Shown here: piece after piece, positions 5,813 through 51,218 of the stretch
How positions within the stretch are numbered: position 1 is the first letter of the stretch
Layout: the number at the start of each line of letters is the position of its first letter
Source of the DNA: Methylophilus rhizosphaerae
Lineage (GTDB): Bacteria; Pseudomonadota; Gammaproteobacteria; Burkholderiales; Methylophilaceae
Direction: 5' to 3'
Length of the DNA stretch: 64,000 bases
Assembly (NCBI RefSeq): GCF_900100975.1
Contig: NZ_FNFX01000002.1
Location: forward strand, 248,001 to 312,000
Position numbers and translations under genes: made by a program
Notes under the pieces: model-generated
What the model was told of the DNA's origin: nothing
Database searches by the model: none
What the model saw: only the letters and a program-made list of their open reading frames with translations

Positions 5813-6268
5813 ATGGATGAAAAAATATTCTTTGATCAGGTCGGCGTCAGGGTGACCAGGGATAGCGTGGTGGTAAAAGGTCAGACCTATCCTGTGGCGA
5901 CCATTACTTCAGTGAGTTTCAGGGAAATTGAGCCCAAACGATGGTTATCTTTCCTGTGCCTGACCGTAGGCCTGATATTATTACTGGAAGAAGGCACCCT
6001 GTTTGCCGTCGGCGGTATTTTAAGTATTTTTGCCATTGTGTCAGGGCTGACCGCAAAGCTTAAATATGCAGTGGTCATGACTACCGGGGCGGGAGAGAAA
6101 CAAGTCATCACCAGCGAAGACAGCGCCTATATCCAGCAAGTCATTCACGCCATTGATGCGGCCATGGTCAACAGGTACAAATCACCTAAAACCAGTGCAG
6201 CATCACCTGCCGGCAAGGTGGCTGCAAAACGTAAGAGCGTCACGCATAAACCTTCGGCTGCACATTGA
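5813..6268 (+). CDS. DUF6232-like small membrane protein (paralogue 1)
   Basis: 151-residue protein of unknown function that resembles the DUF6232 family. It opens with MDEKIFFDQVGVRVT, a short beta-rich domain, then a hydrophobic hairpin (about 45-85) and a hydrophilic region ending in a Lys/Ser/Ala-rich tail (about 125-151). A second copy lies at 16738-17106 and shares the opening, the hairpin and the IQQVIHAIDAAM-type ending, but lacks the basic tail. I prefer the ATG at 5813 over the GTG at 5810 because the paralogue begins at the same place and AGGAG lies 7 bases upstream. No neighbour suggests a role. Confidence 0.75.
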   Translation: MDEKIFFDQVGVRVTRDSVVVKGQTYPVATITSVSFREIEPKRWLSFLCLTVGLILLLEEGTLFAVGGILSIFAIVSGLTAKLKYAVVMTTGAGEKQVITSEDSAYIQQVIHAIDAAMVNRYKSPKTSAASPAGKVAAKRKSVTHKPSAAH

Positions 6269-6320
6269 TGGCACGATTTACCTGGTCAAGAAACATCACT
6301 CGAATACCCATGCAGCAATA

Positions 6321-6348
6321 AACCCGACGAGATAACTCGCCGGGTTTG
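6321..6348. terminator. Probable bidirectional terminator
   Basis: AACCCG-A-CGAG, loop ATAA, CTCG-C-CGGGTT: an 11-bp stem with one A/C mismatch, with TTTG after it on the plus strand. It sits between the convergent DUF6232 gene and the KGG gene and can serve both. Confidence 0.65.
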
Positions 6349-6361
6349 TCATTGTCATCAA

Positions 6362-6529
6362 CTAACCGTTTTTGTGACTCTGACTGCCAGCTTTGGCATG
6401 CTGCTCGCTGGTACCCCCGCGAGTATGGGAAGCACTTTGGTTGCTGCCCTGGTTTTTGTGGCTTTGGCTGCCTGCTTTCGCATGCTGTTCACTGGTACCA
6501 CCACGCATACTGTTTTGACTTGAAGCCAT
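6362..6529 (-). CDS. KGG-type stress-induced small protein
   Basis: A 55-residue protein on the minus strand: ATG at 6529, TAG at 6362-6364, with AAGGAG about 8 bases before the start. It contains two almost identical copies of a 17-residue motif, GGTSEQHAKAGSQSHKN, at residues 10-26 and 38-54, joined by QGSNQSASHTR. This pattern matches the stress-induced acidophilic repeat (KGG, YciG/YmdF/GsiB-like) proteins, which are short, very hydrophilic and induced in stationary phase or stress. The exact biochemical role of the family is not established. The gene is monocistronic and ends at the terminator at 6321-6348. Confidence 0.75.
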   Translation of the reverse strand: MASSQNSMRGGTSEQHAKAGSQSHKNQGSNQSASHTRGGTSEQHAKAGSQSHKNG

Positions 6530-6954
6530 AATACAATCTCCTTCAATTTCAGGTCATCGTCACATTGCACCGAATCCCCTGAAGTTGGTTTTGAAGTACT
6601 GAAGCAATGTGTGGTGCCAGATTAAGGACTATCACGAGTTGAAGTTATCCGAACATGACTGAATGCGGCGTCAGAATTTCGTAGCTTAAATTCAGCACGG
6701 AGAAACTTGAAAGTATTTCTAATCGAGATTGGATACCGCTATTGTGGACTACTACTGATACCCATTAAGGAGTAAACCTCTGCATGAAGCCATAGCTTGC
6801 GGCAGGTGAAATATTACTAAGAATTTTAATCCTTCAGGCATTATCCAAATCATCTTCACACTGATTCCCTACTGCGACCATCGTGAGGATTTTCTCTCAA
6901 TGTTTCCTCCATAAAATTAGAAAACGCTTCCCCTCAAGCCATTAAAAAATCAGT
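6530..6954. other. Intergenic region with no recognised gene
   Basis: About 425 bases between the KGG gene (minus strand) and the mntP leader (plus strand). Stop codons interrupt all frames and I see no RNA gene. The first 15 or so bases hold the ribosome-binding site of the KGG gene. The rest should contain its promoter, but I see no convincing -35/-10 pair. Confidence 0.5.
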
Positions 6955-7075
6955 TATAATGCCGCCTCCTTTGGGGAGTAGCCAGCTTTGCATACCAAGC
7001 AAAGCGCCTGTATCAACATAATCGACGCAAGTCGTGGTGCAGGCGGCCGTTTTCGGTTGGCGAGACTAATGGATA
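6955..7075 (+). promoter_or_regulatory. Promoter -10 box and yybP-ykoY (Mn2+) riboswitch of mntP
   Basis: A perfect TATAAT lies at 6955-6960, with only a poor -35. The transcript that follows carries the yybP-ykoY hallmarks: TTTGGGGAGTAGC (about 6970-6982), GCGCCTGTATCAACATAATCG (about 7004-7024) and GGTTGGCGAGACTAATG (7055-7071). These riboswitches bind Mn2+ and turn on Mn2+ exporters. The gene 67 bases downstream is mntP, the classic target. Whether control acts on transcription termination or on ribosome access is not clear; no strong terminator hairpin is visible before the start codon. Confidence 0.9.
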
Positions 7076-7141
7076 TCAGTGCGACAAAAGTCGGGCGTGC
7101 TGCTATCTATTAATTTCGTCCCGACTAGAAAACATAACTCA

Positions 7142-7726
7142 ATGACCCTTACCAGCACCTCCATTGCGCTTATCGCGCTAGCCATGTCCACCGACGCCTT
7201 TGCCGCAGCTATCAGCAAAGGCGCAGCACTCAAAAATCCCAAGCTATCAGAAGCACTACGCACCGGATTAATCTTTGGCGTTATCGAAGCCATCACGCCT
7301 TTAATCGGCTGGGCCATCGCCACATTCACTATCAAAACCTTCGCCGCAAAATACATTACCGATTGGGATCACTGGATCGCCTTCACCCTCCTGCTCGCCC
7401 TTGCCCTGCATATGATTTACGAAGGCTTTCAACCGGCAGAACCCGAAGAAGAAAAACCCACCAAGCATTCCTTCTATATCCTCGCTCTCACCGCAATCGC
7501 CACCAGCATAGATGCCATGGCCGTTGGCGTTAGCCTGGCATTTATGGATGTGAATATATTCATCACCGCCGCAGCCATAGGCTTTGCCACATTTACCATG
7601 GTGACGATTGGTGTGATGCTTGGGCGGGTATTAGGGTTAATGTTTGGAAAGCGTTCAGAAATAGTTGGTGGTTTAGTGCTGATTGCGATTGGGTCATATA
7701 TTCTCTATGAACACATCGCTTCGTAA
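7142..7726 (+). CDS. mntP: Manganese efflux pump MntP
   Basis: 194-residue inner-membrane Mn2+ exporter, close in length to E. coli MntP (188). Six hydrophobic helices form two related halves. Each half carries the conserved acidic motif used for Mn2+ passage: STDAFA near residue 18 and TSIDAMAVG in the second half. [23 protein letters not shown] is typical of the family. I chose the ATG at 7142 because it aligns with the E. coli N-terminus; a GTG at 7079 would begin inside the leader and has no Shine-Dalgarno. The Shine-Dalgarno before 7142 is also weak, which suits riboswitch control of initiation. The gene belongs to the core genome; the AT-rich island begins directly after it. Confidence 0.95.
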
Positions 7727-7871
7727 ATAGCAATTTAGAGTTAATACGTTTAAACCTAAATAGCAAAAATTAATTAAAATAGTTTAGTTAAACTTACTAT
7801 CAATTAGAAAAATAGAAACATTACTCATTGTTCCGAACTTACGAGAAAAATACACTAAAAGGAATACTCTG

Positions 7872-9929
7872 ATGCTAAAAAATAGATTTGTAGTCTTTGG
7901 GTTGTTTTTTGCGATATTAATGTTTTTGAACTATTACTTTACGCAGTCTTTATTACCTAGCCCAGATACAAAGAACCTCTGGTTCTACTCAGGGTTGTTT
8001 ATGATGGTATTTTCAATACTATTCATTGATCCATATTACTCTTCCCCAAAAAATGTAATCACGAACACAATCCCCTTAGCACTCACACTTATTCCAATTA
8101 AAGATATATTTGCGGATACTAAGATTTGGTGGATTTCATTTGGAGTGGTTATCACGCTATTAGTAGCTGCACTAATATCCCTAGTAATAAATGACGAAAC
8201 GAAGAGCGAAAATCATGTGCAAAATCGTCTCTCTGTTTTTTTGAAAAATTCAGTTGTGCTCTTTGGCCAGGGAAAGGTTTTATATTCCTTAGTATTCATT
8301 GCATCTTTGCTTAGTTACTATTCAATTCAGAATGACTACACAATAACTTTATTCTTTTTCTGGTGTGGCATTTTGCTGATAAACCCTAAGTCGCTTACTA
8401 ATACATTCAGTTTAACAGGCAAGAAATTGTCCACGAACGCAATAGGCGAAGTGTTCAGCATCCAATCAAAGCAGGTGCTTTTAGCAAAAGTCTTTAGAGA
8501 TAAAACTAACGTTAATAAATTCGATATTGTTGAGTTTCAATATTCAACTCAAGATGATCATACTGTTTCTATTGGGTTTATTTTTGATACCTATTTTCTT
8601 AATAATGAAAAGTGGATAAAAGTCTTAAAGCTTAAAAATGACATTCAACAAAATGCTGACCTAAATCCCAATATTATTTACAAAGTCAGTACCCAGCATA
8701 ATCCACATGCTGATTTAAATATTGATAAGTTTGTGGGAGTGGTTGTTGAAGGCTCAAATATAGAAAATATACGGTTTGAATATTCAAAGCAAAATGAAAA
8801 TTTGGAAGAGGGGCAGCTATTAGTAGTTGCTGTTGGAAGTAAAAGCATATTTTACCAAGTAGTCGAAGGTATAACAGCAATTGAAAATTTAGAGTCTAAG
8901 AATGAAAGTGGTTTCACTTGTGGAGAAGCTATTCAATTGGGTGAGTGGCAAGCAAACCAATTAAGCTTTATTAAATATGGCTGGGTGCCAAATATTAATA
9001 CTCCAATATTTTTAGCAGAGCAAAATTTCGCAATTAATCAATATGCTTATCCTGAATATCAATTAGGTGTTATTCCTGGCACCAACCTACCATCGGTTAT
9101 CAACTTGCATGATGCGGTTAGTCATCATATGGCATTAATTGGTGTAACAGGCTCAGGAAAATCATTTTTGGCCCGAGAGATTATTAATCAGCTTCAAACA
9201 GACACTAAAGTAATTTGTATTGATTTCAATAACGAGTTTGTAACAACATTAAATCCAGCACCTTTACCAATTATTAATGCGGCAACGGCAACTCAAATTG
9301 CTACTCACATTGATTGGATAAATAACGAATTAGATAAATTTGCTAATCAGCAAGATAAACCGCAAATAGCATCACGACAAGAAAACATTAAAACTCTAAT
9401 CAAAACTGAAATTGATGCATTTTTGGATGATCAGACATCCACTATAAAAGTATTTGAATTACCGGATGTTAGTAACACTACAGGCATTCTTGATTACACT
9501 AAATATTTTTTCAAGGTTGTTTTTGAAGTTGCCAAGGAGCGACTACTTGCTGGTAATCCTGTGAGAATCTGTGTAGCTATTGAAGAGGCACATACAGTAA
9601 TACCAGAATGGAATTTTGCTGGCAGTTCAGACAAGACATCTCAAAGTTTGGTTAACACAATAAGCCAAATCGCTCTGCAAGGTAGAAAGTATGGGGTTGG
9701 ATTTATGATCATTACTCAGAGAACAGCAAACGTTTCAAAAACTATACTAACCCAATGTAATACAGTTATTTGTTTTAAAGCGTTTGATGATACAAGCTTT
9801 ACTTTTGTAGGAAATCATATCGGTAAAGAGCTTGTAAAGACTTTGCCAAGGCTCAAACAATATCATGCAGTGGTGACTGGAAAAGCTATTAAGTCGAATC
9901 TGCCAATAATTGTAGACTTAAAGAGATAA
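7872..9929 (+). CDS. Membrane-anchored HerA/FtsK-superfamily ATPase (DUF87-like)
   Basis: 685-residue protein. The first 175 residues hold about six hydrophobic helices. Residues about 180-410 form a beta-rich region that begins IGEVFSIQSKQVLLAK and resembles the HAS-barrel of HerA. The rest is a HerA-type RecA-fold ATPase, with Walker A GVTGSGKS at 424-431, a Walker B ending in two Glu (VAIEEAHT, Glu571-Glu572), and LQGRKYGVGFMIITQR, the arginine-finger and sensor region of HerA/FtsK ATPases. Such ATPases usually work as hexameric rings that pump DNA or drive remodelling. It opens a three-gene operon with a small membrane protein and a caspase-like protease. The AT-rich codons differ from the neighbours. 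AAAAGGA lies 8 bases before the ATG. No nuclease is encoded beside it, unlike HerA-NurA or HerA-SIR2. Substrate unknown. Confidence 0.85.
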   Translation: MLKNRFVVFGLFFAILMFLNYYFTQSLLPSPDTKNLWFYSGLFMMVFSILFIDPYYSSPKNVITNTIPLALTLIPIKDIFADTKIWWISFGVVITLLVAALISLVINDETKSENHVQNRLSVFLKNSVVLFGQGKVLYSLVFIASLLSYYSIQNDYTITLFFFWCGILLINPKSLTNTFSLTGKKLSTNAIGEVFSIQSKQVLLAKVFRDKTNVNKFDIVEFQYSTQDDHTVSIGFIFDTYFLNNEKWIKVLKLKNDIQQNADLNPNIIYKVSTQHNPHADLNIDKFVGVVVEGSNIENIRFEYSKQNENLEEGQLLVVAVGSKSIFYQVVEGITAIENLESKNESGFTCGEAIQLGEWQANQLSFIKYGWVPNINTPIFLAEQNFAINQYAYPEYQLGVIPGTNLPSVINLHDAVSHHMALIGVTGSGKSFLAREIINQLQTDTKVICIDFNNEFVTTLNPAPLPIINAATATQIATHIDWINNELDKFANQQDKPQIASRQENIKTLIKTEIDAFLDDQTSTIKVFELPDVSNTTGILDYTKYFFKVVFEVAKERLLAGNPVRICVAIEEAHTVIPEWNFAGSSDKTSQSLVNTISQIALQGRKYGVGFMIITQRTANVSKTILTQCNTVICFKAFDDTSFTFVGNHIGKELVKTLPRLKQYHAVVTGKAIKSNLPIIVDLKR

Positions 9930-9958
9930 ACAAAAGCAATAAAATAGGGAGAAGAATA

Positions 9959-10405
9959 ATGGTTATGGACGTCACAATTACAACAGCAGCAATAGCAACT
10001 ATAGTTTCAGCAATAACTTCGGCAGCTGTAGCTTTGTTGATTGCTAGTAGGAACTCAAAAAAAGCAATTGATGATCAATTAGACGGGATACTTAAAATTG
10101 CTATCCAATATCCTTATCTTGAATGCAAAAGTTTTACCAATGCCTGGTCAAGTCGTTACGATCAAAATGACGAGAAGGCTTTAAGGTATGAGGTTTATTG
10201 CACCCTTGTTTTTAACTTCATGTCTAGGATTTGTGCTTTTTACAAGTATGACTCAAATAAAGTTGAACAACACATAGCTATAAAGCAGTGGGCTAGAATT
10301 CATTGCAAGTACTGGCGTGATCCTACAGAGGCTTTTGAGAATGTTGATACTTATGATAAGGAATTTGTTGATTTAATTGAAGGTTACTTAAAAGGAGCTA
10401 AATAA
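9959..10405 (+). CDS. Small single-pass membrane protein of the ATPase-caspase operon
   Basis: 148-residue protein that I cannot place in a family. It has one N-terminal hydrophobic helix (about 8-30) rich in Ala and Thr, a short basic stop (SRNSKK), then a cytoplasmic, mostly helical domain with several Trp and Cys residues (for example KQWARIHCKYWRD). The ATG at 9959 follows AGGGAGA; a second ATG at 9965 is possible. It lies 29 bases after the ATPase gene and its stop codon overlaps the caspase start by one base (TAATG). The tight linkage to both neighbours and the membrane helix suggest an adaptor or scaffold that brings the protease to the membrane-bound ATPase. That is inference. Confidence 0.6.
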   Translation: MVMDVTITTAAIATIVSAITSAAVALLIASRNSKKAIDDQLDGILKIAIQYPYLECKSFTNAWSSRYDQNDEKALRYEVYCTLVFNFMSRICAFYKYDSNKVEQHIAIKQWARIHCKYWRDPTEAFENVDTYDKEFVDLIEGYLKGAK

Positions 10406-11112
10406 TGAAAAGAAAGGCTTTATTGATAGCCAACACTAATGGGCTTGAAGGGGTCAAGGTTGATATTACAAAATTTTCTGCGTTCTTAAAAAGCAATCTT
10501 GGAGGTGCCTGGTTTGATTCGGAAATACAAATATTAGCAAATGAGTCCAAAGTAAGTCTGTTACGTAAAGTAGATGAATTAAAAAGACAATCGAATGACT
10601 ACACCATTGTACTTTTTAGCGGGCATGGTGGTTATCAACGAAGAACCGTTTTGGAAATAAACGGTAACGGTGAGACTATCCAAGAGAATGAATTGGCTAA
10701 TATATCTAAAAGACAATTAAATATTTATGACTGTTGTAGATCAATTATTCCAGAATCAACGGTTAAAGCAGCAATGGACTCAATGACCGTTAGATTCGCG
10801 GAGTCTGTAAATACTTATAGGCAAAAATTTGATAGTAGAATTATGCAAGCAGATGAACAGCTTGCTAGCCTTTATTCTTGTTCCATTGGACAAGTATCTT
10901 ATGACACCTCGAATGGTGGAGTTTATTTATCAAAATTACTAGATGCTGCAAAAAATGTATCTACAGATTTTAAACTGGTGAGTACTGCGCATGATGAGGC
11001 TAGAACTGCGACCATTTTGGAAAGTAAACTTGCTGGAAGAACCCAAGTGCCAGATGCTGTACTTGCTAAATCCATGTCATATAGGCAATTAATAATTTCC
11101 CTCTCCTCCTGA
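10405..11112 (+). CDS. Caspase-fold (peptidase C14) protease
   Basis: 235-residue caspase/metacaspase-like cysteine protease. It begins KRKALLIANTNGLEGVKVDI, the first strand and helix of the caspase fold. The catalytic His74 is in FSGHGG and the catalytic Cys is in IYDCCRS (Cys110-Cys111; Cys111 precedes Arg and is the likely nucleophile, as in metacaspase DCCHSG). The C-terminal part has SIGQVSYDTSNGGVYLSKLL, which looks like the caspase segment after the nucleophile that shapes the substrate pocket. There is no fused effector, sensor or transmembrane part, so targeting must come from its partners. Bacterial caspases with linked NTPases often serve in anti-phage defence. Here the partner is a membrane HerA-like ATPase. 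It starts inside the stop codon of the previous gene with AAAGGAG upstream. Confidence 0.85.
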   Translation: MKRKALLIANTNGLEGVKVDITKFSAFLKSNLGGAWFDSEIQILANESKVSLLRKVDELKRQSNDYTIVLFSGHGGYQRRTVLEINGNGETIQENELANISKRQLNIYDCCRSIIPESTVKAAMDSMTVRFAESVNTYRQKFDSRIMQADEQLASLYSCSIGQVSYDTSNGGVYLSKLLDAAKNVSTDFKLVSTAHDEARTATILESKLAGRTQVPDAVLAKSMSYRQLIISLSS

Positions 11113-11134
11113 TTACAGTCGTTAAAGAATTAAT

Positions 11135-12172
11135 ATGGATAAACGTATCCCCGTCACGCTGCTTACAGGCTTTTTGGGCAGCGGCAAAACCACCCTACTC
11201 AACAAGCTTCTGCATAACCCCGCGATGAAAGACACCGCCGTGATCATTAATGAGCTCGGCGAAGCAGGTTTGGACCAAATTTTTGCCAATAGCCAGATTT
11301 CGCAAACCATCGAGAGCGAGCATATTGCCGATAACACGGTGTTGTTGAGTTCTGGCTGTTTGTGCTGTTCACTCAAAAACGAGCTGGCCGATACCATGCG
11401 CGATTTGTTTTTCAAACGCAGCCTGGAGGCCGTACCACAATTCAACCGCCTGGTGATTGAAACCACGGGCATGGCGGACCCTGGCCCGATTCTGGCCAAC
11501 CTGATGAATGAACCGGTGATTGAATCGGTTTACAGATTAGACGCCGTAGTGGTGACGGTTGATGCGGCTTACGGCTTGCAGCAGATCGCATCACAAAAGG
11601 AAGCGTTGAAACAGGCGGCGGTAGCAGATGTATTGCTGATTACCAAGGCTGACACAGCAACGCCTGAGCAGATCAGCGCTTTGCAGGAAAAACTCAGCGC
11701 GATTAACCCGAATGCCACACAGCAGTTTGTGTCACATGGTGAAATCGACCCGATGGATATTGTCGATGTCGGCCTGTTTGATTTTGCCAATAAACAAGCC
11801 AACCCGCAGCGCTGGTTGCGCGCGCCTGCCAGCGGCTTCAGCATGGGTAAAAAAGGCACGATTCCGCAAGCGCCTGCGCATGACGATGTGACGACGTTTA
11901 CCGTTTACCTGCCCAAGCCTATGGTGTGGTCTGATTTTAAAAGCGTGATTCTCAAACTGTGCCAGAAACACGGCGAACAGTTATTGCGTCTGAAAGGCAT
12001 TCTGCACGTAGAAGACGCGCCTGCGCCACTGGCGATCCATGCCGTGCACTTTACACCTTATCCACCGACCTTACTGGAAGGCTGGGATGAGGACGAGCCA
12101 ATTAGCCGGATTGTAATTATCGGCAAAGGTATCGACGAACAAGCCGTGCGTGATATGCTCACCCAGTTTTAA
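11135..12172 (+). CDS. CobW/G3E-family GTPase (COG0523, YjiA-like)
   Basis: 345-residue metallochaperone-type GTPase. Walker A is GFLGSGKTT (residues 12-20). The metal-binding CxCC motif is SGCLCC (Cys75, Cys77, Cys78). Switch and Walker B region ETTGMADP and the guanine-specificity TKAD follow. The C-terminal CobW_C domain (about 235-345) includes the family's typical LLRLKGILHVED. Family members deliver Zn, Co or Ni; the metal here cannot be deduced, and no Zur box is evident upstream. The gene starts 22 bases after the caspase stop without a clear Shine-Dalgarno. It has host-like base composition, so it marks the right edge of the AT-rich island. Confidence 0.9.
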   Translation: MDKRIPVTLLTGFLGSGKTTLLNKLLHNPAMKDTAVIINELGEAGLDQIFANSQISQTIESEHIADNTVLLSSGCLCCSLKNELADTMRDLFFKRSLEAVPQFNRLVIETTGMADPGPILANLMNEPVIESVYRLDAVVVTVDAAYGLQQIASQKEALKQAAVADVLLITKADTATPEQISALQEKLSAINPNATQQFVSHGEIDPMDIVDVGLFDFANKQANPQRWLRAPASGFSMGKKGTIPQAPAHDDVTTFTVYLPKPMVWSDFKSVILKLCQKHGEQLLRLKGILHVEDAPAPLAIHAVHFTPYPPTLLEGWDEDEPISRIVIIGKGIDEQAVRDMLTQF

Positions 12173-12175
12173 CAG

Positions 12176-12371
12176 TAAGTGATTTAACGGGTAAATTGCG
12201 GCGTTGCGCGAACCAATTTCCGAACTCAGGAAATTCTCATGTATGACTTGAACATTGACTTCGGCCACTACGTTTAACATCGCTGCGCGAGTTAGCCTTC
12301 GTCGCAACACTGCGTGAGTTGTCCGGTTTCTGTGTTCGAGCGCCTTGCACTTTACCCCGAAAAATCACTTA
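12176..12371. repeat. Imperfect long inverted repeat (MITE-like element)
   Basis: A 196-base non-coding element with matching ends. TAAGTGATTT, 3 bases, GGGTAAA (12176-12195) on the left mirrors TTTACCC, 4 bases, AAATCACTTA (12351-12371) on the right. Similarity continues inward for about 55 bases per arm (left GGCG..CGAAC...CCGAACTCA, right the complement of TGAGTTGTCCGG...GTTCG..CGCC). The left end begins 4 bases after the GTPase stop. No ORF is inside. It could be a MITE, an old insertion-sequence remnant or a long structured RNA. Confidence 0.55.
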
Positions 12372-12415
12372 TTGGATAATGAAGTAGTCACCGATGTATT
12401 AGAAATGGAGTAAAT

Positions 12416-12940
12416 ATGGCACGTTATTTGGAAAGATTATTAGAAGGCTGGATTTTCAAAAGCCGCTGGCTGATGGCACCGATGTATCTCGGCCTGGTGG
12501 GCGGCCTGGTGATCCTGCTGGTCAAATTTGTGCAGGAATTTATACATATCGCTGCGCACCTGGCGACGCTGACCGAACAGGAAACCGTGTTATCGCTGCT
12601 GGCACTGGTGGACATTACCCTGGTCGGCAACCTGCTGATTATGGTGATCTTCAGTGGTTATGAAAACTTTGTATCGCGCATTGATACGGCAGATAGCGAA
12701 GACCGTCCCGAATGGATGGGAAAAGTGGACTACTCCGGCCTGAAACTGAAACTGATCGGCTCCATTGTCGCGATTTCTGCCATTGATCTGCTGAAAGCCT
12801 TTGTGCACCAAAGTTCTGGCACCGCCAGTTTCAGTACCGAACAAATGGCCTGGCTGGTGGGTATACACCTGACCTTTATCGTCACCGGCGTATTATTCGC
12901 CTGGATGGATAGAATTGCCGGTCACGGCGAAGACCATTAA
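12416..12940 (+). CDS. UPF0114 (TIGR00645/YqhA) family membrane protein
   Basis: 174-residue inner-membrane protein of the UPF0114 family (E. coli YqhA, 164 residues). Hydrophobic helices lie at about 18-40, 55-85, 103-125 and 142-162. The conserved ESRWLMAPMYLGL-type opening appears here as FKSRWLMAPMYLGL, and MVIFSGYENFVSR and LKLIGSIVAISAI are typical of the family. Function is unknown; an ion-channel-like role has been suggested for relatives but is not established. GGAG precedes the ATG. The gene is monocistronic and ends at a strong terminator shared with the converging hydrolase gene. Confidence 0.9.
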   Translation: MARYLERLLEGWIFKSRWLMAPMYLGLVGGLVILLVKFVQEFIHIAAHLATLTEQETVLSLLALVDITLVGNLLIMVIFSGYENFVSRIDTADSEDRPEWMGKVDYSGLKLKLIGSIVAISAIDLLKAFVHQSSGTASFSTEQMAWLVGIHLTFIVTGVLFAWMDRIAGHGEDH

Positions 12941-12959
12941 TGACATGATACCAATATAA

Positions 12960-12984
12960 AAAAGGCCGGGTTCTCCGGCCTTTT
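12960..12984. terminator. Rho-independent terminator between converging genes
   Basis: AAAAGGCCGG (12960-12969) pairs with CCGGCCTTTT (12975-12984) around GTTCT. A/T runs on both sides let it serve the UPF0114 gene (plus) and the isochorismatase-type gene (minus). Confidence 0.85.
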
Positions 12985-13018
12985 GCTTGTGTATCCAGTT
13001 CGGCTGGGCCGGAGACTC

Positions 13019-13564
13019 TTAACTGAGGTATTTATCCGTCGAAATCACCGAACCATAAGCAAAGGCGAATGCGGCCATGGCAGCAGCATGTGCTTGTGCC
13101 GCAGGCACAGTCACGCCATTGAATTCAAGGTCCAGCGTAGCACAGGCATCGTGTAATACGGTCACGGCATACCCCATATCTGCCGCCGCGCGGACAACAG
13201 CATCAATACACATATGGCTCATGGCGCCTACTACGACCACTTCTTCTACCTCATGCGCATCCAGTTGCTGTTTCAGGTCGGTCTTGCGGAATGCGTTGAT
13301 ATGGTTTTTGACAATCACCGGCTCTCCGGCCACCGGTGCTACACTCGCCTGAATTTTTACTCCATCGCTACCGGGAATAAACACCGGTGCCTCATCATGG
13401 GCAAATTCGTGCCGGATATGAAAAACCGGCATGCCTTTATGCCGGGTATAGGCAATCACCCTGGCAGCATTGGCAACCGCAGCCTCAATGCCGGTGAGCG
13501 GCAGTTTACCGGTAGGTAGATATTCGTTTTGCAGATCAACAACAATCAGGCCACTTGTTTTCAT
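13019..13564 (-). CDS. Isochorismatase-like cysteine hydrolase
   Basis: 181-residue hydrolase of the isochorismatase/nicotinamidase superfamily. The catalytic triad is visible: Asp10 in VVDLQ, Lys86 in VIVKNHINAF and Cys119 in MSHMCIDA, the usual SxMC nucleophile motif. I took the ATG at 13564, preceded by CAGGAGAG, rather than the longer open frame that extends upstream without a signal. The family includes nicotinamidases, ureidoacrylate and N-carbamoyl hydrolases, and the substrate is not clear. No NAD or pyrimidine gene is nearby. It is transcribed alone, convergent with the UPF0114 gene. Confidence 0.88.
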   Translation of the reverse strand: MKTSGLIVVDLQNEYLPTGKLPLTGIEAAVANAARVIAYTRHKGMPVFHIRHEFAHDEAPVFIPGSDGVKIQASVAPVAGEPVIVKNHINAFRKTDLKQQLDAHEVEEVVVVGAMSHMCIDAVVRAAADMGYAVTVLHDACATLDLEFNGVTVPAAQAHAAAMAAFAFAYGSVISTDKYLS

Positions 13565-13681
13565 GATGCTCTCCTGAGATGGATGCCTTATGTTAACCGG
13601 AACACAGCAGGCTGAGAAGCCGCATTTCAGACAGCACTGGCTCAGACATACACGCGACAAACAATATCCGTCGGCTGAATA

Positions 13682-13706
13682 AAAAGGCCGGTAACACCGG
13701 CCTTTT
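13682..13706 (-). terminator. Rho-independent terminator of ppk2
   Basis: AAAAGGCCGGT (13682-13692) pairs with ACCGGCCTTTT (13696-13706), an 11-bp perfect stem with a 3-base loop. On the minus strand it is followed by TTTTT, 13 bases after the ppk2 stop. Confidence 0.85.
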
Positions 13707-13718
13707 CCTTTGCCAACA

Positions 13719-14675
13719 TTAATACCTGGCAGGCACAAACATCTCTTGAGGCACCGGGCCGCGGATATAGTCATCGTTATAGACCCGCTGGGGCAATACC
13801 ACTGGCGCGTGTTCTACAACACCATAGTCAATCTGGCTTAACAAGTGATTAATGCAGTTGAGACGCGCTTTCTTTTTGTCTACGGCTTCGATGACCCACC
13901 ACGGCGCTTCGGGAATATGCGTACGTTCCAGCATGACTTCCTTGGCTTTGGTGTATTGCTCCCAACGGCGTCGTGATTCCAGGTCCATCGGGCTGAGTTT
14001 CCACTGTTTGAGCGGGTCATGGATACGCGTCATAAAGCGTAAGTGCTGCTCATCATCGGTGATGGAGAACCAGTACTTGACCAGAATAATGCCGGAGCGG
14101 ACCAGCATCTTTTCAAACTCAGGCACGGAGCGGAAAAACTCTTCGTATTCGTCATCGTTACAAAAGCCCATGACTTTTTCCACGCCGGCACGGTTATACC
14201 AGCTGCGGTCAAACAGCACGATTTCGCCGCCGGCAGGCAGATGCGAAATATAACGCTGGAAATACCATTGCGTCCGCTCACGCTCACTGGGCGCAGGCAA
14301 GGCAGCCACCCGGCAGACACGCGGATTCAGGCGTTGCGTAATACGTTTAATCACGCCGCCTTTACCTGCGGCATCACGCCCTTCAAACAGCACCACCACT
14401 TTTAACTTATTGTGCACCACCCAGTCTTGCAGTTTGACCAGTTCACCCTGCAAGCGGAACAGCTCTTTAAAATAGGTGTGGCGGTTGGACAGTGATGATT
14501 TGGCATTGCCTGTCTGCAAGCCATACACTTCTGAAGCATCGGCAAATTCGGCCAGGATCTGGTCCATGCGCTCGTCATCCAGTTCCATTTCCAGCTCTTC
14601 GTCAAAACTATCCATCATTTCACTATTAAACCGCTCATCCATAGAGAGGATGTCGGCAGACTTTTCAGTTGTCAT
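13719..14675 (-). CDS. ppk2: Polyphosphate kinase 2 (PPK2)
   Basis: 318-residue PPK2-family kinase, which moves phosphate between polyphosphate and nucleotides. The core starts near residue 63. Walker A is GRDAAGKGG (99-107) and Walker B is DRSWYNRAG (from 156), with ALPAPSERERTQWYFQRY as the lid-side signature. The first 55 residues are an acidic extension (DEELEMELDDERMD) seen in some one-domain PPK2 proteins. Whether it prefers ADP/GDP or AMP is not clear from sequence alone. It is divergent from the phosphate transporter gene, with a Pho box of its own upstream, so it is probably induced by phosphate starvation through PhoB. It ends with a strong terminator. Confidence 0.92.
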   Translation of the reverse strand: MTTEKSADILSMDERFNSEMMDSFDEELEMELDDERMDQILAEFADASEVYGLQTGNAKSSLSNRHTYFKELFRLQGELVKLQDWVVHNKLKVVVLFEGRDAAGKGGVIKRITQRLNPRVCRVAALPAPSERERTQWYFQRYISHLPAGGEIVLFDRSWYNRAGVEKVMGFCNDDEYEEFFRSVPEFEKMLVRSGIILVKYWFSITDDEQHLRFMTRIHDPLKQWKLSPMDLESRRRWEQYTKAKEVMLERTHIPEAPWWVIEAVDKKKARLNCINHLLSQIDYGVVEHAPVVLPQRVYNDDYIRGPVPQEMFVPARY

Positions 14676-42269: not shown

Positions 42270-45200
42270 TTAATCTGTGACGAGTTTTTGCTGAGCCATC
42301 AGATTAGCGATGATCTGAGCATCTGTGGTTTGACCACTGGTCAAATCAACGCCTGTCAACACAATCTGCTGGGTAGTATGACCGCTGTTGAAAGCACCAC
42401 CCACATTATGTGCATCCCCAGCATAGCCACCATTAGAGCTGATGTTGATAACGGTGCTAGTGACGCCACCGCTCACAGATTTCTCAAAGTGAATATAGTT
42501 AGTGAGATTGCTACTGTTTTCACCTTGCAACAAATCACGCACATCCAAAACATCACCACCATTGCTGATAGTCCCGGTGTTAAAGTCAGTGATCGTATCT
42601 CTAGCAGGTGTGCCTGCTATACCATCATCACCTCTATCCCACTTGAAGACATCCACGCCCGCACCACCTGTTAAGGTATCGTCACCTTTACCACCGATCA
42701 GGATGTCATTACCGTTACCGCCATTCAACGTATCGTTGCCAGCACCACCACGCAGGATATCGTTACCATCTCCACCATTCAGCGTATCGTTACCTGCATA
42801 GCCGTAGATAATATCGTCACCAGTTGTGCCAGTCTTAGTATCATTACCATCAGTACCACTAATAATGGTTGTGTTGTTATTGCTGCTCAACAAATCGATA
42901 TTAACCAGGTTGGTTGAACTGGCGCTGTCATGCAGATTGGTACTATCGGTCGCTGTAATCGTGAAATGATCCAGCACGCCAACGCCGACTGCCGCATTGG
43001 TTTTAACCGTAGACAGGAACTCGTTCAGTTTCAGGTTATCCAATGTGCCACCATCAAGAGCCGTAATCACCATCTGGCCATGAGCGCCCAAGCCTAAGAA
43101 ACTACCTTGATCATAAGTTACCTTTAAGCCCAACTCACTAGCTACAGCTGATGAGTAGTTGAGGAAGTTTGCACCTAACGCAACACCCACCAACGCAGCG
43201 TAATCAATGGTAACCGTTTGGATGTTGTTGTTTACATCACTTGCCGTAAATGCCTGACGGCTGGCAAAGTTCAGCAGATCAACATTCAACAAGCCAGGAA
43301 TAGTCACCAAACCGGATGCGTTCAAGGCATTACCCACATCAGGTGCTACAGCCGGAAGTGCAGTAGATTTAGCCATGGTCACCGTCAATGTTGCAGAGCC
43401 GACGTCACCATCACGATCACTCAATGTGTAACCAAATTGGGCTGAGCCAGTCACATTGGTGTCTTTGGGCGTGAAGGTAAACGCACCATCATCCATATCC
43501 ACAATCAAGACACCTTTGTCGGTTGTCACAGACAGTTTATGGCTGCTTGAGTCATACGAATATGTACTACCACTCTGGCTTGGCGTAATGCTACCGTTGG
43601 AGGCATTAAACGTATAAGTTACGCTGCCAACAGTAATCGACTTCACGTATCCACCATCTGCACCAAAACCGCCTCCCTCAACCAGGCTGCCATTCACCGG
43701 GCTGCTGATTGTTTGGCTTAACGCGTTATCCAGCTGACTATATGAAGTCACCACAATACCATTAGTATTGGTACTTGTTTGACCGTTATAAGCAATCGGA
43801 TTCAAATTGGTAGTCGATGTACTTGACCCCATCCCGATGGCATAAGAGTTGATGTCATGTTGATTCAGGAAATCAGTCCATATTTTCTCTTCAGCAGTAT
43901 CGATACCTCTATCACTTTGTGATGAAGTTTCGCTTCCACTCAAGGTGCCCGACCCGCCCAAACCAAGGTTAGGCTCGCCATCCGTGAACAGATAAGACAC
44001 ATTTTGTGCATTATCTAGTTTACCGGTACTGTCAAAAGCGCTCATCGCCTTATTTAGCGCCGCATCATAGTTGGTGCTACCTTTGGTAGAGATGCCATTC
44101 AACAAAGCCTCAGCTTCTGCGACAGTTACCCAACCACTGCCCAACTGCTTGGTATTAGCAGCATCAGAGAACACAACCAAGGCAACTTTAACATCACCCA
44201 TATCATCATATTTAGCAAGCAGATTTTTAATTGACTGAATCGCACTTGCCAGACGGGTCGCGCCATTTACACCATCTCTGGTATCCATACTGGTAGAAAT
44301 ATCCAGTGTGATCAACAGATTGGTATTGGTCGAATTGGTTGCGACAATAGTCTGATCTTTTGCTACTGGCGAATCATCTTCGATGCTCACTGGCAAGGTA
44401 GTGGTTTGCGTAATGCCATTGACAGTCACGCTGACACCCACATTAGCCGCCACGGTATCTTCGGTATTACCGTTAGGATGATCCAAAGGAGCAATCAGGT
44501 TAATGTTGTATTTACCTTGATCATTGATTGTCACTGTCAGGACAGTGCTACCGCCAGCAGAGCCAGTTAACGTATGACCATCGCTAGACAAACTCCAGGT
44601 CACAGGCTTGCCACCGGAAGTCAGGCTATCGCTTGGTGCCTGCAGGCTCCATTTCGCACCATCATTGCTACCATTCAAGGTAAAGCCACCGGTTGCCTGG
44701 GCTGAATCCGTAGTATCTGTGCTACCGGCATTATCTTTAATGCCATTTGCCAAACCTTCTTCAGAAACAGCCATTTTGCTGCCTGCATCCAGAGTGATAC
44801 CGCGGTCGTTGTCCAGAATAGTGCCAGTCCCTGTCACACCATCTACTGTCAGGGTCAAGGTCTCTGGATTTTCGATCAGAACATCATCAATGGTTGGTAC
44901 GGTGACCACGAAGTCTTTTACACCCGCTGGCACAGTGATCGTGCCATTCGCAGCGTTGTAAGTCACGCCATTACTGAAGTTGGCACTGGTCAGTGCGGCA
45001 TAATCCAAACCGGAGGTTGCAGTACCACCGATAGTAAACGTATGAGTCATTGCATGATCAGCGGCTTTGCCCAGGCCTACTTCAAAGGTCAGCGTATTGC
45101 CTTCAACTACACTGTCATCAGTAGTCGAAGGAGTACCGTTCACAGTGATCGTAGTCGTGGTGCTGTCGTTGTCCAGGATAGTACCAGTCCCTGTCACACC

Positions 45201-48200
45201 ATCTACGGTCAAGGTCAAGGTCTCTGGATTTTCGATCAGAACATCATCAATGGTTGGTACGGTGACCACGAAGTCTTTTACACCCGCTGGCACAGTGATC
45301 GTGCCATTCACAGCATTGTAAGTCACGCCATTGCTGAAGTTGGCACTGGTCAGTGCGGCATAGTCGAGGCCGGAAGTCGCAGTACCACCGATTGTGAAGG
45401 TATGAGTCATCGCATGGTCAGCGGCTTTGCCCAGGCCCACTTCAAAAGTCAGTGTCTTACCTTCAACAACGCTGTCATCTGTCGTCGTAGGCGTACCGTT
45501 GACGGTGATCGTAGTCGTTGTGCTGTCATTGTCATCAACGTACCCTGTTCCAGTCACACCATCTACTGTCAGAGTTAATGTCTCTGTATTCTCAATCAGA
45601 ACGTCATCAATCGTTGGCACCGTGACCACGAAATCTTTCACGCCAGCTGGCACAGTGATTGTGTTGTTAGCTGAGTTGTAAGTCACACCATTGCTAAAGG
45701 TTACTTTTGATGGATCGTAATCCAAACCAGGCGTCACGCTGCCACCCAGTGAGAAGGTGTGCGTCATCGCATGATCAGCGGCTTTACCCAGACTCACTTC
45801 AAAGGTCAGCGTATTACCTTCAACAACATGATCATCTGTAGTCGTAGGTGTACCGTTGACGGTGATCGTAGTCGTGGTGCTGTCGTTGTCCAGAATAGTA
45901 CCTGTCCCTGTTACACCATCGACTGTCAGGGTTAATGTCTCTGGGTTCTCAATCAGAACATCATCAATCGTTGGCACTGTCACCACGAAGTCTTTTACGC
46001 CAGCTGGCACGGTGATTGTGTTGTTAGCTGAGTTGTAAGTCACACCATTGCTGAAGTTTGCACTGGTCAATGCGGCATAATCCAGGCCTGAAGTCGCACT
46101 ACCACCAATAGTGAAAGTATGCGTCATCACATGATCGGCTGCCTTGCCCAGGCTCACTTCAAAGGTCAATGTGTTACCTTCAACAACACTGTCATCAGTG
46201 GTCGAAGGCGTACCGTTGACGGTAATTGTGGTCGTGGTGCTGTCGTTGTCCAGCACAGTACCAGTTCCTGTCACACCGTCTACTGTCAGGGTCAAGGTCT
46301 CTGGATTCTCGATCAGAACGTCATCGATTGTTGGCACTGTCACCACGAAGTCTTTTACGCCAGCAGGAACAGTGATTTTTCCAGTAGCTGAATCATAGGT
46401 AACGCCATTGCTGAAGGTAACTTTGGATGGATCGTAATCCAAGCCAGGTGTCACGCTGCCACCTAGTGAGAAAGTGTGAGTCATGTCATGGTCAGCAACT
46501 TTGCCCAGGCTCACTTCAAAGGTCAGGGTGTTACCTTCAACCACACTGTCGTCTGTAGTCGTAGGCGTCCCATTAACGGTGATTGTGGTCGTTGTGCTGT
46601 CGTTGTCCAGAATAGTACCTGTGCCAGTGACACTGTGAGTACCATCCGGATTGCTGATCGTCAGTGGCACGGTCTCACTTGACTCAATAATTTGGTCATC
46701 CACTGTCGGTACTGTCACTGTAAAGCTGGTCACGCCAGCTGGTACGGTGATCGTGCCGTTTGCAGCATTGTAAGTCACACCATTATTGAAGGTCGGTGGC
46801 ACTGTGTAGTCAGAACCAGCCGTGGCCGTACCGCCACCCAATGTGAAGTTGTAAGTTGTTGGTACGTTGGTTTCGGCACTCAGTGTCACTGTGTACACCA
46901 GAGATACACCTTCAACCACGGCATCATCACCCGCACCAGGATGGCCTGGTTCTACGGTGATCACGTTTGGTTTGTCATTATCAATGATGATACCTGTACC
47001 GGTCACAACATGGCTGCCATCCGGGTTGCTCAGGGTCAGTGGTACTGTCTCGTTCAAGGCTTCAACCACAGTGTCATCGACTGTCGGTACTGTCACGGTG
47101 AAGCTGGTCACGCCAGCTGGTACAGTGATCGTACCGTTCGCAGCATTGTAAGTCACACCGTTGCTAAAGGTAGGGGGTACGGTGTAGTCATCACCCTGTG
47201 TCGCTGTACCACCACCCAATGTGAAGTTATAAGTCGTTGCTGTATTGGTTTGTGCACTCAGGGTCACTGTGTACACCAGGTTGTTACCTTCAACCACGGC
47301 ATCATCACCTACACCAGGCTGGCCTGGCTCTACAGTGATCACGTTCGGCTTGTCGTTGTCCTGGATAATACCTGTACCAACTGCACCACCAATTTCCAAT
47401 GGCAATGTTTCATACAGAGATTCAACAATCGTGTCGTCCACTGTTGGAACAGTCACGGTGAAACCGCTCACGCCAGCTGGTACGGTGATTGTGTGGTTTG
47501 CTGCGTTGTAAGTCACACCGTTGCTGAAAGTAATTTTTGTTGAATCATAGTCAGCTGAAGAAGCAGTACCACCACCCAGATTAAAGCTGTAGGTAGCTGG
47601 CGCGCCAGTGGCTGAACTTAAAGTCACGTTGTAAACCAGATCATTGCCTTCAACCACGATGTCATGACCGACACCAGGCGCTACAGTGGTAATGGTTGGC
47701 TGACCGCTACCATTAAATTGCAGGCTGGAGGAAGAGGTATCACCATCATTATCAATCAAGGTGAAGCCCAGGCTGGTGCTTTCACCAGTCACCAATGGAC
47801 GGCTACCATTGTAGAGGTATTCCCCGTTTTGCATATTGACGGTAATGGTTTCGCCTTTGGCGGTGGTCACTGTCAATTCGTGGCTATTTGCATCGTAACC
47901 ATAACCAGTCACTGCTGGAGAAGTGCCACTGGTAGTGACCGCATTGGTTGTTGCGTTGTAAGTGTAAGTCACGCCACCCACAATAATGTTCTGTACATGA
48001 CCGCCATCTGCACCAAAGGCACCGAAGCTACCAGAAGCAGTGGCAACTGCCGGGTCAATGACCAAATTGCCGCTGTGCACCAGGTCGCTCACAATTTGTG
48101 TGCTGTCTGTTGTACCGTAAGTGGTTTGCAGGTTTACACCTTCCAGCACGATGGTCTGGTCTTCAGCACCAGCACTATAGCCACCGGTAAAGCCGCCTGT

Positions 48201-51200
48201 GCTGCTGATATGCAAGACAGTGTTGCCATTCTCGACAGTCACACGTACATAGCTGGACAGATTAGCCAGGTTCTCACCCTGCAGCAGGGACCGCAGGTCA
48301 ATCACGTCTGTACCCAGGGTAAAGTCTTTTACGGTATCTACAGCTGGAGTACCCGCTGTGCCCTGGTCGCCCTTCTCCCAACGGAACACATCGTTGCCAG
48401 CGCCACCAGTCAAGGTATCGTTACCAGTCCCACCGATCAAGATGTCATTACCAGCACCGCCATTGAGGGTGTCATTTCCGGCACCACCGCGCAACAAGTC
48501 ATTGCCGTCGCCGCCATTGAGTGTGTCGTTACCGCCATGGCCATACAGCTGGTCATCGCCAGTAGTGCCTGTCAGTGTATTGTTGCCACCATCGCCTTCT
48601 TTGAGATTTGGATTGGTCGTAGCATTGCTCAACACATTTGCGTCTGCCAGCGTACCCAGTGTTTTGCTGTCTGAAGCACCCTGGGTATCGGTAGCCGTAA
48701 TGGTTACCGCATTTAATACGTCAACACTGATTGCACCACCATCCAGGCGGACGGTTGCCAATAACTCGTTGATAGCCAGGTTATCGATCGGGCCACCATC
48801 CAATGATGTAATGACTAAGTGAGAGGATGGTACGATCAATCCCAGAAAACCGGGGTCGTAAGTGATGTCCACCTTGAGGCCCAACTCGGCAGCTAATGCC
48901 TGGGAAACGCTGAATTCACGTGGGCCCAGCAAGCCCCCCAGGGAAATCAACCCCGTGTAGCTCAATTCAACCTTGCTGATGTTGTTGTTGGCGTCTGTTG
49001 CACCAAAGGCAGAATGCGTGCTCAGGTCAATCAGGTTCAAGGCAGAAGCACCCACCAGGCCTAACAAATTATGGCTGTTGGTTAATGAAACATCTGGGGC
49101 GACATTGTTGGTATCTACGTTGTTTACTGCCACTGGGCCACCCTGAGCCACTGGTGCATCATCTTCGACGCTCACTGGCAAAGTGGTTGTTTGTGTAACG
49201 CCATTCACGGTCACACTGACACCAACATTGGCTGCTACAGTATCTTCTTTACTGGCATCAGGGTGGTCCAGCGGTGCTTTCAAATCAATGCTGTACTTGC
49301 CTTGATCGTTGATCGTGACAGTCAGCACGGTGTTACCGCCGGCAGAGCCTGTCAATGTATGACCGTCAGGAGATACACTCCAGGTCACGGGCTGGCCACC
49401 AGAAGTCAGGGCAGCACTCGGGGCCTGCAAGCTCCAGACAGCGCCATCGTTGCTACCGTTCAAGGTAAAGCCGCCCGTTGCCTGGGCTGAGTCAGTGGTA
49501 TCTGGGCTACCGGTATTGTCTTTAATACCGTTTGCCAAGCCTTCTTCAGAGACAGCTGTTTTGCTGCCTGCATCTAGGGTAATGCCGCGATCATTATCCT
49601 CAATGATGCCGGTACCAGTCACACTATGAGTGTTGTCAGTATTACTGATCGTCAACGGCACAGTCTCATCAGGCTCAATAATGTTGTCATCCTTGGTTGG
49701 TACTGTCACGGTGAAGCTGGTGACATTCGCTGGCACAGTGATCGTGCCTGTGGCTGCATCGTAAGTCACACCATTGGTAAAGGTTGGTGGCACTGTGTAA
49801 TCCAGACCTTCTGTCGCGGTACCGCCACCCAGAGTGAAGTTGTAGGTAGTAGCCGTATTGGTTTGTGCACTCAGTGTCACGGTGTAAACCAGGTTATTAC
49901 CTTCAACTACAGCATCATCGCCAACACCAGGTTGACCTGGTTCTACTGTGACTACAGTAGGCTTGTCATTATCCAGGATATGACCTGTGCCTGTATCAGA
50001 AACAACATTACCGTTGCCATCCACGCTACCAATAGTCAAGGACACAGTTTCGTCATAGTGGGCATCAACGATAGTATCGTCAGTGGTCGGGACATTCACT
50101 GTAAAGCTGGTAACACCTGCCGGCACGGTGATTGTGTGGTTTGCTGCGTTGTAAGTTACGCCATTGCTGAAGGTGACTTTTGCCGGATCATAGTCAAAGT
50201 CAGGGCCAGCACCAGGTGTCGCTGTATCGCCCGCTTTGCCAAGCTCAAAATTGTAAACAGTATCTGTATTGGTCGCAGCACTCAGGGTCACTGTGTAATG
50301 CAGGGTACCGCCTTCAACCACGGTGTCACCACCAACGCCTGGTGTGCCAGGGTCTACTGTGACTACAGTAGGTTTGTCGTTATCCAGAATATGGCCGGTG
50401 CCTGTCACACCACCAATTTCCAATGGCAGGGTCTCGTCGTAATGATCATCAACGACAGTGTCATCAATGGTTGGCACAGTCACGGTAAAGCTGGTTACAC
50501 CAGGTGGGACAGTGATTGTTCCATTCGCAGGGTTATAAGTTACGCCATTGCTGAAAGTTGGTGTACCGTAATCATCACCAGCCGTTGCAGTACCGCCACC
50601 CAGATTGAATGAATAAGTGGTTGCTGCTTGAGGTGCTGCACTCAAGGTCACGGTATAAACCAGGGTATCACCCTCAACCACGGTGTCTCCACCTGGGCCA
50701 GGATGGCCTGGAACAACATTGGTGATGGTTGGCGAGTTAGGGAAATACATATAGTTTTGCCGAGCGGTTTCGATGGTAGGCTCACCAAATGCACTACCGC
50801 CATCATAGGGGGTTGCCGGGCCAACGCTCTCGGAGATACGATCTAGGTTCACAAAACTGGCATCACCGTCACTGCCTGCCTCACCTGCAGCAGGGCTATC
50901 AAGAACTTCAGTAATATCACGGCCTTCATTCAGGGCGACCAATACTGCATCAAATACAGCCTGGTTGACTGCATTCTCAGTCACATCGGACACATCGACC
51001 TGGGCCAGGTTATCTGTAATCTTCACAGTTTGCGCTTCGGCAAAATTCACAGTTTCGCCATTGGCAAGTTTCACATCGACGCTGGCGCCGCCTGCGGTGA
51101 TCACTTTATCACCGGCGTGCAATGCTTCGCCCACTTGCAGCATATGGCGGTTGCCATTGGCATCCACCACAATTGCCATCCCTTGAACTTTAGTCACGGT

Positions 51201-51218
51201 ACCGATCACTGTAGCCAT
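42270..51218 (-). CDS. Giant LapA-like RTX adhesin with Calx-beta repeats
   Basis: 2982-residue surface adhesin for biofilm attachment, exported by type I secretion. Order: LapA-type retention module (1-105); LapG site PAAG at 109-112; three Calx-beta repeats (about 155-540); a T1SS-143-like domain (543-690); an RTX block (about 876-943) with a following secretion-like module; eight more Calx-beta repeats (about 1176-2140, each about 120 residues); a second T1SS-143-like domain (2140-2290); a von Willebrand A domain (about 2295-2480) with the MIDAS motif DISTS; a final RTX block (about 2789-2860); and the C-terminal secretion signal. The retention module plugs the TolC-like pore until LapG cuts it. 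The Ca2+-binding RTX nonapeptides fold after export. The start follows GGGGAT. It is monocistronic, with its own terminator, downstream of the secretion genes on the same strand. Confidence 0.95.
44830..46650 (-). repeat. Near-identical Calx-beta DNA repeats
   Basis: Five adjacent repeats, about 357 or 360 bases each, encode [10 protein letters not shown](S/T)TTDD(S/H)VVEG and the following beta sandwich. The same block recurs near 45130, 45490, 45850, 46210 and 46570 with only a few base changes. Such high DNA identity favours copy-number change by recombination. Less similar repeats extend to about 47690 and occupy 49600-50720. Confidence 0.85.

Follow-up and report, generated by a model that had tools for sequence, protein, structure and literature searches.

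Organization of the three-gene island

In Methylophilus rhizosphaerae, a stretch of 64,000 nucleotides (assembly GCF_900100975.1, contig NZ_FNFX01000002.1, positions 248,001 to 312,000 of the forward strand; hereafter the window, whose first letter is position 1) carries three tightly packed genes for a membrane-anchored ATPase of the HerA/DUF87 type, a small transmembrane protein (TM protein) and a stand-alone caspase-fold protease. The initial annotation of this DNA, made from its letters alone, had read the genes as a three-gene abortive-infection module. Our comparisons show that the conserved unit is smaller than the trio, namely the pair of TM protein and caspase, which occupies a site where the genus exchanges cassettes and follows a motor protein with relatives in restriction systems. 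The relevant features of the window are:

7872 to 9929, plus strand: membrane-anchored HerA/DUF87-type ATPase of 685 amino acids (aa), with six predicted N-terminal helices, Walker A at residues 424-431, EEAH at 571-574 and LQGRK at 602-606
9959 to 10405, plus strand: single-pass membrane protein of 148 aa (the TM protein), with a helix at residues ~10-28 and no Pfam family
10405 to 11112, plus strand: stand-alone caspase-fold protease (Peptidase C14) of 235 aa, with the dyad His74/Cys111
7727 to 11125, no strand: AT-rich acquired island of 34.3% GC with exactly three genes, its ends set against the sister genome G003
7079 to 7726, plus strand: mntP (manganese exporter), the left neighbour, outside the cassette
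11135 to 12172, plus strand: CobW-family gene, the right anchor of the hotspot, outside the cassette

The position, common strand and lengths of the three open reading frames (685, 148 and 235 aa) agree with the initial annotation, as does the single base shared by the TM-protein and caspase genes; the gap between the ATPase and TM-protein genes is 29 bp. The GC content of the ATPase (34.1%), TM-protein (35.3%) and caspase (36.6%) genes stands against 49.2% for mntP, 51.8% for cobW and 51% for the window, and compared with the 34.3% of the island, none of 539 sampled 3.4-kb blocks of the window outside the island fell below 45.5%. DNA similarity to the sister genome G003 stops at position 7716 at the end of mntP and restarts at 11126 just 5' of cobW, so that the three genes make up the whole island. 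They are real genes and not chance reading frames, because homologues of each of the three proteins exist elsewhere and strong purifying selection acts on the ATPase. Two points go beyond the initial annotation: the sharp low-GC block made up by the three genes, and the derivation of ATPase and pair from loci of different types.

The TM protein and caspase form a pair on mobile DNA

The caspase is matched by Pfam Peptidase_C14 across residues 2-187 of 235 (E = 4.7e-16; 59.6 bits versus a cut-off of 21.4), a cut-off that the caspases of the viral contigs L078 and L080 exceed as well. The caspase of a third viral contig (L029, 8444-9166) is 42% identical to that of the window and keeps the dyad, but goes unmatched in Pfam at E <= 0.01; general caspase models therefore miss part of the family. 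An NCBIfam model of EACC1-associated caspases matched the window protein at E = 1e-6, far under its cut-off, and PADLOC gave a weak match for the caspase (E = 0.0042) and none for the TM protein. His74 and Cys110/111 had been proposed as catalytic residues: His74 and Cys111 are invariant in all five aligned caspases, window included, whereas Cys110 is replaced by Ser or Ala in two, and Cys111 is therefore the likely nucleophile. The single-pass topology of the 148-aa partner was upheld by the prediction of one N-terminal transmembrane helix. Its C-terminal part is conserved and carries the motif YPYLE, and the residues R76, Y77, N86, H115, W119 and Y132 are invariant in the family. The TM protein had zero Pfam matches at E <= 1, a search of the PDB with its profile returned matches at chance level only, and neither this protein nor the window caspase matched PHROGs, in which the TM protein of L080 weakly hit phrog_27043 (unknown function; E = 0.002).

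A tblastn search of 72,556 plasmid records with the TM protein and the caspase matched Leptospira only, with the same six records for both, and the phage versions of the proteins led back to the same Leptospira plasmid records (5-6 of 72,556 across queries). Four Leptospira stretches were compared, two from L. interrogans (two of the four records) and one each from L. mayottensis and L. noguchii. In L. interrogans and L. mayottensis, the TM-protein gene precedes the caspase gene, and 90 bp on lies a gene annotated as DEAD/DEAH helicase, possibly another nucleoside triphosphatase (NTPase) partner of the pair. The TM-protein gene of L. mayottensis is cut short; in L. noguchii, the TM protein is 62% identical to that of the window and the caspase gene is broken. 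The helicase-annotated gene occupies 7829-9727 in the three stretches concerned (L013, L014, L015), encodes 632 aa and matches Pfam ResIII in L013, the one tested.

At least three viral contigs, L029, L078 and L080, carry relatives, and in these the TM-protein gene directly precedes the caspase gene with gaps of 5, 5 and 17 bp. An integrase lies 0.06-2.1 kb from the pair in all three; the vicinity of an integrase is a usual place for accessory defence genes. At 7538-10360 of L029, the pair stands between a Cro/CI-type helix-turn-helix gene and a SocA/Panacea antitoxin-like gene. Gene order is constant, and the intergenic distance ranges from -1 to 17 bp across the five measured loci (window, L029, L078, L080 and the L. 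interrogans plasmid L013); this constancy on Leptospira plasmids and phage contigs argues that the pair is a conserved two-gene unit carried by mobile elements in distant hosts.

Within Pseudomonadota, on which the genome searches were centred, the pair appears to be rare. The window caspase found itself alone at E <= 1e-8 in 398 genomes of the phylum, and the profile of the TM-protein family at E <= 1e-6 found the window alone among 369 genomes of the class and 398 of the phylum; these genome counts may be low, since the genome search with PF00656 missed the window caspase though hmmscan matches it. A match of the TM protein in G025 was discarded as chance (E = 7.4e-5, ~60 residues, four in-frame stops). 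INPHARED phages gave no match with the L029 caspase, the L078 TM protein or the window TM protein, the window caspase not being used as query, and a search of the viral contigs with the first caspase alignment yielded no relative among 73 matches.

The ATPase as a module with relatives in restriction systems

The ATPase matches Pfam DUF87/HerA (E = 6.5e-13); its best PADLOC HerA model reaches E = 3.1e-31, compared with a weaker 3.6e-17 for the mad8 model of MADS, and solved HerA chains also match the motor domain. Walker A (GVTGSGKS, residues 424-431) and the Walker B motif EEAH (571-574) lie where the initial annotation had placed them, and the six or so N-terminal helices that it described are recovered in the family-averaged hydropathy of seven ATPases as six main peaks (6-24, 36-54, 62-80, 88-106, 128-146 and 157-175), the single sequence exceeding a strict threshold at three places only.

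Relatives of this ATPase lie within type I restriction-modification (RM) operons at four loci (L004, L005, L006 and L007). The closest are full length (86-87% identity over 685 aa) and come from two genomes of Methylobacillus, another genus of the same family as the source organism, where hsdS precedes and a PDC-S42 gene follows the ATPase in an operon that also comprises hsdM, RhuM and hsdR (L006 by similarity to L004). Two matches at 86-87% in a search of the family are probably these same two genomes. DNA similarity between these operons and the window is confined to 7860-9929, i.e., from the ribosome-binding region through the stop codon, and the ATPase gene behaves as a module. The interval between the ATPase and hsdR (10102-11558 in L004 and L006) holds the PDC-S42 gene and a gene for 183 aa that matches neither Pfam nor PADLOC (L004 supplied the sequences for both tests). 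The PDC-S42 protein also has one hydrophobic segment; its equivalence to the TM protein was rejected, as BLASTP gave no alignment better than chance (best E = 0.16 over 24 residues) in a comparison of the sequences alone.

In the Gracilibacteria metagenome-assembled genome L005, read with genetic code 25, the ATPase is full length and 54% identical, and the gene order is HsdM, HsdS, ATPase, Fic, HsdR. This operon (5816-14162), in which TGA encodes glycine, represents an apparent exchange of the ATPase across phyla and genetic codes. The type I RM region of an Arcobacter plasmid encodes a relative with 26% identity, preceded by SMODS and SLATT_6 genes and followed by a Schlafen AlbA_2 gene. Other relatives are placed between an AAA gene, itself beside a presumably subtilase-like gene, and an N6_N4 DNA methylase (L034), before a DUF4365/restriction endonuclease-like gene (L035), before the gene of a 475-aa protein that has a hydrophobic segment at its C-terminal end, with an integrase-like gene nearby (L033), before reverse-transcriptase genes (L010), and, on plasmids of Bradyrhizobium, in the vicinity of genes that carry the annotation abortive-infection family (L008, L009, L011). 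One locus (L036; 53% identity over 431 residues) counts against a strict link to restriction, with a transporter-like gene ~1 kb upstream and no hsdM or hsdS in its list of open reading frames; the contig end cuts the ATPase gene there, and the downstream side is missing. The plasmid search with the ATPase (E <= 1e-5) matched 359 records, nearly all of those listed by the motor domain; among the matches listed, five cover at least 80% of the protein, and neighbourhoods were taken from five of the eight top-ranked records. On viral contigs, no relative was found among 15 pattern matches.

In the window, the neighbours of the ATPase gene are mntP on one side and the caspase pair on the other instead of hsdS and hsdR, and tblastn with HsdM, HsdS and HsdR of L004 found no such gene. 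The idea that the gene is a degenerating relic of a restriction operon can be dismissed: no remnant of hsdS is present, similarity beginning 12 bp before the start of the ATPase gene, and decay is also ruled out by strong purifying selection (pN of 0.08 versus a pS of 0.75, synonymous sites being saturated) and by the lack of a rate excess, with 23 private amino acid changes in the window ATPase and 20 in the Methylobacillus L004 copy (outgroup, the Gracilibacteria protein). Where it now stands, the ATPase gene of the window appears to be functional. The source genome has a type I RM operon of its own on contig C5 (L083, 5755-14306) with HsdM, RhuM-like, HsdS, Schlafen AlbA_2 and HsdR genes, in which an ATPase of this family is absent.

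A hotspot of exchangeable cassettes upstream of cobW

A cobW-type gene was found in all 22 genomes of the genus that were searched, the source genome included. Four of the 22, again with the source, have a match to mntP, which adjoins the site in the source and G003 alone; fragments are found there in G015 and G008. The stretch upstream of cobW was compared in 20 other genomes; G013 was left out (its contig starts there), and G018 is without upstream room. Six genomes (G001, G006, G012, G016, G017 and G019) have another arrangement, with a gene close upstream that we take to be SelO-like, presumably a Fur-like gene between in four of them, and two opposite-strand genes in between in G019. Among the remaining 13, one or more genes directly precede cobW in 11 and none in two (G004, G011).

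For seven of these 11 cassettes, PADLOC gives matches at E <= 1e-10, many of them to its candidate defence systems: PDC-S06 in G003, PDC-S15 with an FRG domain in G002, G010 and G020, PDC-M36AB in G007, PDC-M34AB in G008, and, in G005, NsnA/PD-T4-2 together with a HEPN gene. The others consist of a DUF4062 gene in G021 (Pfam only), a gene with a weak PADLOC match in G015 (2.4e-4), one without match in G014, and a PEP-CTERM-like exported protein in G009 that is not defence-like. In the ten cassettes measured (G009 left out), the GC content is 33-43% versus 50-54% for cobW. In view of the varied cassettes in the sister genomes, the trio of the window is one among many that can replace each other here. 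The cassette proteins of G014 (L063) and G015 (L032), with 480 and 495 aa, have no Pfam match and none or a weak one in PADLOC; by motif they presumably bind ATP, and it is possible that they represent undescribed defence genes.

To the left of the island, a manganese (yybP-ykoY) riboswitch at 6965-7129 overlaps the start of the mntP reading frame (45.3 bits versus a gathering score of 45). Elsewhere in the window, 42270-51218 on the minus strand encodes a protein of 2982 residues with repeated segments and glycine-rich repeats, which we take to be Calx-beta-like segments and RTX-like repeats resembling those of a type I secreted giant adhesin.

Comparison with known systems

HerA-SIR2 is an example of a HerA-effector system. 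Such systems resemble the window locus in coupling a HerA-type ATPase to changing effectors, and anti-invader systems are described as having captured HerA/FtsK motors repeatedly (PMC10853773, PMC12839542). In HerA-SIR2, HerA-DUF4297 and the like, the partner is SIR2 or a nuclease, whereas the ATPase of the window has an unmatched TM protein and a caspase as neighbours, i.e., a protease pair and not a nuclease or NAD hydrolase, and it carries six predicted membrane helices. The membrane ATPases of the type I RM systems of Methylobacillus (86-87% identical), Gracilibacteria (54%) and Arcobacter (26%) belong to the same family, but hsdM, hsdS and hsdR are missing beside that of the window, where the caspase pair replaces the RM accessory genes. 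MADS comprises other mad genes, whereas the island has three genes only and matches no mad model except mad8.

In the bacterial gasdermin and type IV Thoeris systems, a caspase-type protease is the immune effector, and in the gasdermin case it acts on a membrane protein. The TM protein, with its 148 aa and N-terminal helix, differs in having no gasdermin match in the sequence models of Pfam, NCBIfam and PADLOC at E <= 1. Type IV Thoeris has a TIR-domain gene, whereas none of the three window proteins matches TIR, and the neighbours are Mntp and CobW. Gasdermin and Thoeris are both named among caspase systems in a source (PMC12799240) that also lists Canu (caspase-nuclease), Hachiman and AVAST as systems with unrelated NTPase sensors that repeatedly acquired protease-effector pairs; these three share with the window a caspase-family protease beside a small set of partners. 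Canu has a gene for a metallo-beta-lactamase-fold nuclease beside the caspase, which the island lacks, the partner here being the 148-aa TM protein without Pfam match. The caspase protein of Canu furthermore has an immunoglobulin-like fold; in the window caspase, the sequence models of Pfam match the catalytic domain only. EACC-type caspase systems differ in their domain make-up (PMC8195603).

Proposed function and alternative explanations

With a probability of roughly 0.45, we regard the locus as a composite anti-phage (abortive-infection) cassette in which a portable TM/caspase pair stands behind a portable membrane HerA-type ATPase. The gene identities, the intact catalytic residues, the conservation of the pair, the boundaries of the ATPase module, the single low-GC block and the location in the hotspot are established by the sequence comparisons. 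A defence role of the locus is likely, because the pair is found on prophage-like and plasmid DNA, the hotspot is rich in PADLOC families and the ATPase has restriction-linked relatives. Close packing, common GC content and purifying selection suggest that the ATPase and the pair may cooperate. The ATPase, from a family that elsewhere is placed mostly in type I restriction operons and other loci of defence-like character, would then be the sensor, the TM protein an anchor, regulator or substrate, and the caspase the killing effector, whose protease activity, encoded in a gene overlapping that of the TM protein, may be held at, or act on, the membrane partner. Upon infection, the ATPase might engage the invading DNA at the membrane, by sensing it or pulling on it, or respond to a disturbance of the membrane, and its action would change the TM protein. 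The caspase would thereby be freed or activated, may cut the TM protein or proteins of the cell, and growth would stop before the phage is completed; a release of the caspase by the ATPase had also been proposed in the initial annotation.

Several observations weigh against this composite cassette. The exact trio occurs in one genome only, the ATPase is absent from all seven other loci of the pair (tblastn, E <= 0.01; three phage contigs and four Leptospira stretches), and the pair is absent from all 12 other loci of the ATPase (tblastn); these counts refer to stretches of 9-19 kb around the matches and not to whole contigs, with L036 cut. The pair proteins themselves were found by tblastn in all seven loci, in L012 with the caspase in pieces only. 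Therefore, neither partner needs the other at those places, and the trio cannot be upheld as a conserved system: homologues occur without their partners in both directions, an outcome that the initial annotation had named as a refutation. Of its abortive-infection module, the likely role in defence holds (hotspot, integrase-linked pair). Moreover, neither a fold nor a function can be assigned to the 148-aa TM protein with the sequence models of Pfam, NCBIfam and PADLOC. The operon structure is a prediction: a consensus scan found fewer promoter-like sites than in shuffled sequences (5 versus a mean of 14.1), one of them at 9977-10005 just within the TM-protein gene, and terminator-like sites are slightly more frequent than in shuffles (4 versus 1.7), including two coding-strand sites that fall within the genes for the ATPase (7977) and the caspase (10877).

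Since the pair does without the ATPase in every other locus compared, the strongest competitor, possible if somewhat doubtful, holds that two independent units share the hotspot, an autonomous TM/caspase defence (or toxin-regulator) system with the TM protein as sensor or brake of the caspase, and an orphan ATPase, whose relatives likewise lack the pair in the 12 loci compared. Yet the island consists of these three tightly packed genes of the same low GC content, the ATPase evolves no faster than its relative and is constrained by strong purifying selection, and NTPase neighbours of the pair recur, as seen from the helicase-annotated gene 90 bp behind it in three Leptospira stretches of two species. 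A connection of the ATPase to restriction might also be direct if it acted in trans with the type I system on contig C5, much as its relatives may act in cis with theirs, the caspase pair being unrelated. The position of the closest ATPases between hsdS and hsdR and the presence of an HsdM-HsdS-HsdR set elsewhere in a genome with a single ATPase match would fit, but the accessory gene of the C5 system is Schlafen AlbA_2 and this system shares no more than 25-26% identity with Methylobacillus L004 in HsdM and HsdR, which leaves this explanation very improbable. Other roles besides defence have been proposed for bacterial caspase homologues, and the locus could be a stress-induced proteolytic regulator or a programmed-death module without function against phages. 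We consider this unlikely, as the prophage-like or plasmid-borne pair, the cassette hotspot and the restriction-linked relatives of the ATPase point to a conflict with mobile DNA.

The composite cassette, if correct, would tentatively represent a DNA-translocase-triggered membrane caspase, in which an undescribed two-gene caspase defence unit of prophages and plasmids has been joined to a restriction-type membrane HerA ATPase. The initial annotation knew of no described system with this trio, and so far this holds: the protein models of PADLOC were strong on the ATPase (HerA) only, and no title or abstract in a literature search, weak as evidence of absence with subscription journals and preprints thinly covered, dealt with the pair or with a membrane HerA ATPase and a caspase.

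Implications

In animals, caspases carry out cell death; what activates the related proteins of bacteria is still an open question. The minimal pair on phage contigs and plasmids, with its one small membrane protein and one bare caspase, is among the simplest settings for asking what restrains a bacterial caspase. The junction of this pair with a restriction-related ATPase at a hotspot of the genus provides a testable case of the exchange of immune parts between restriction and cell-suicide systems.

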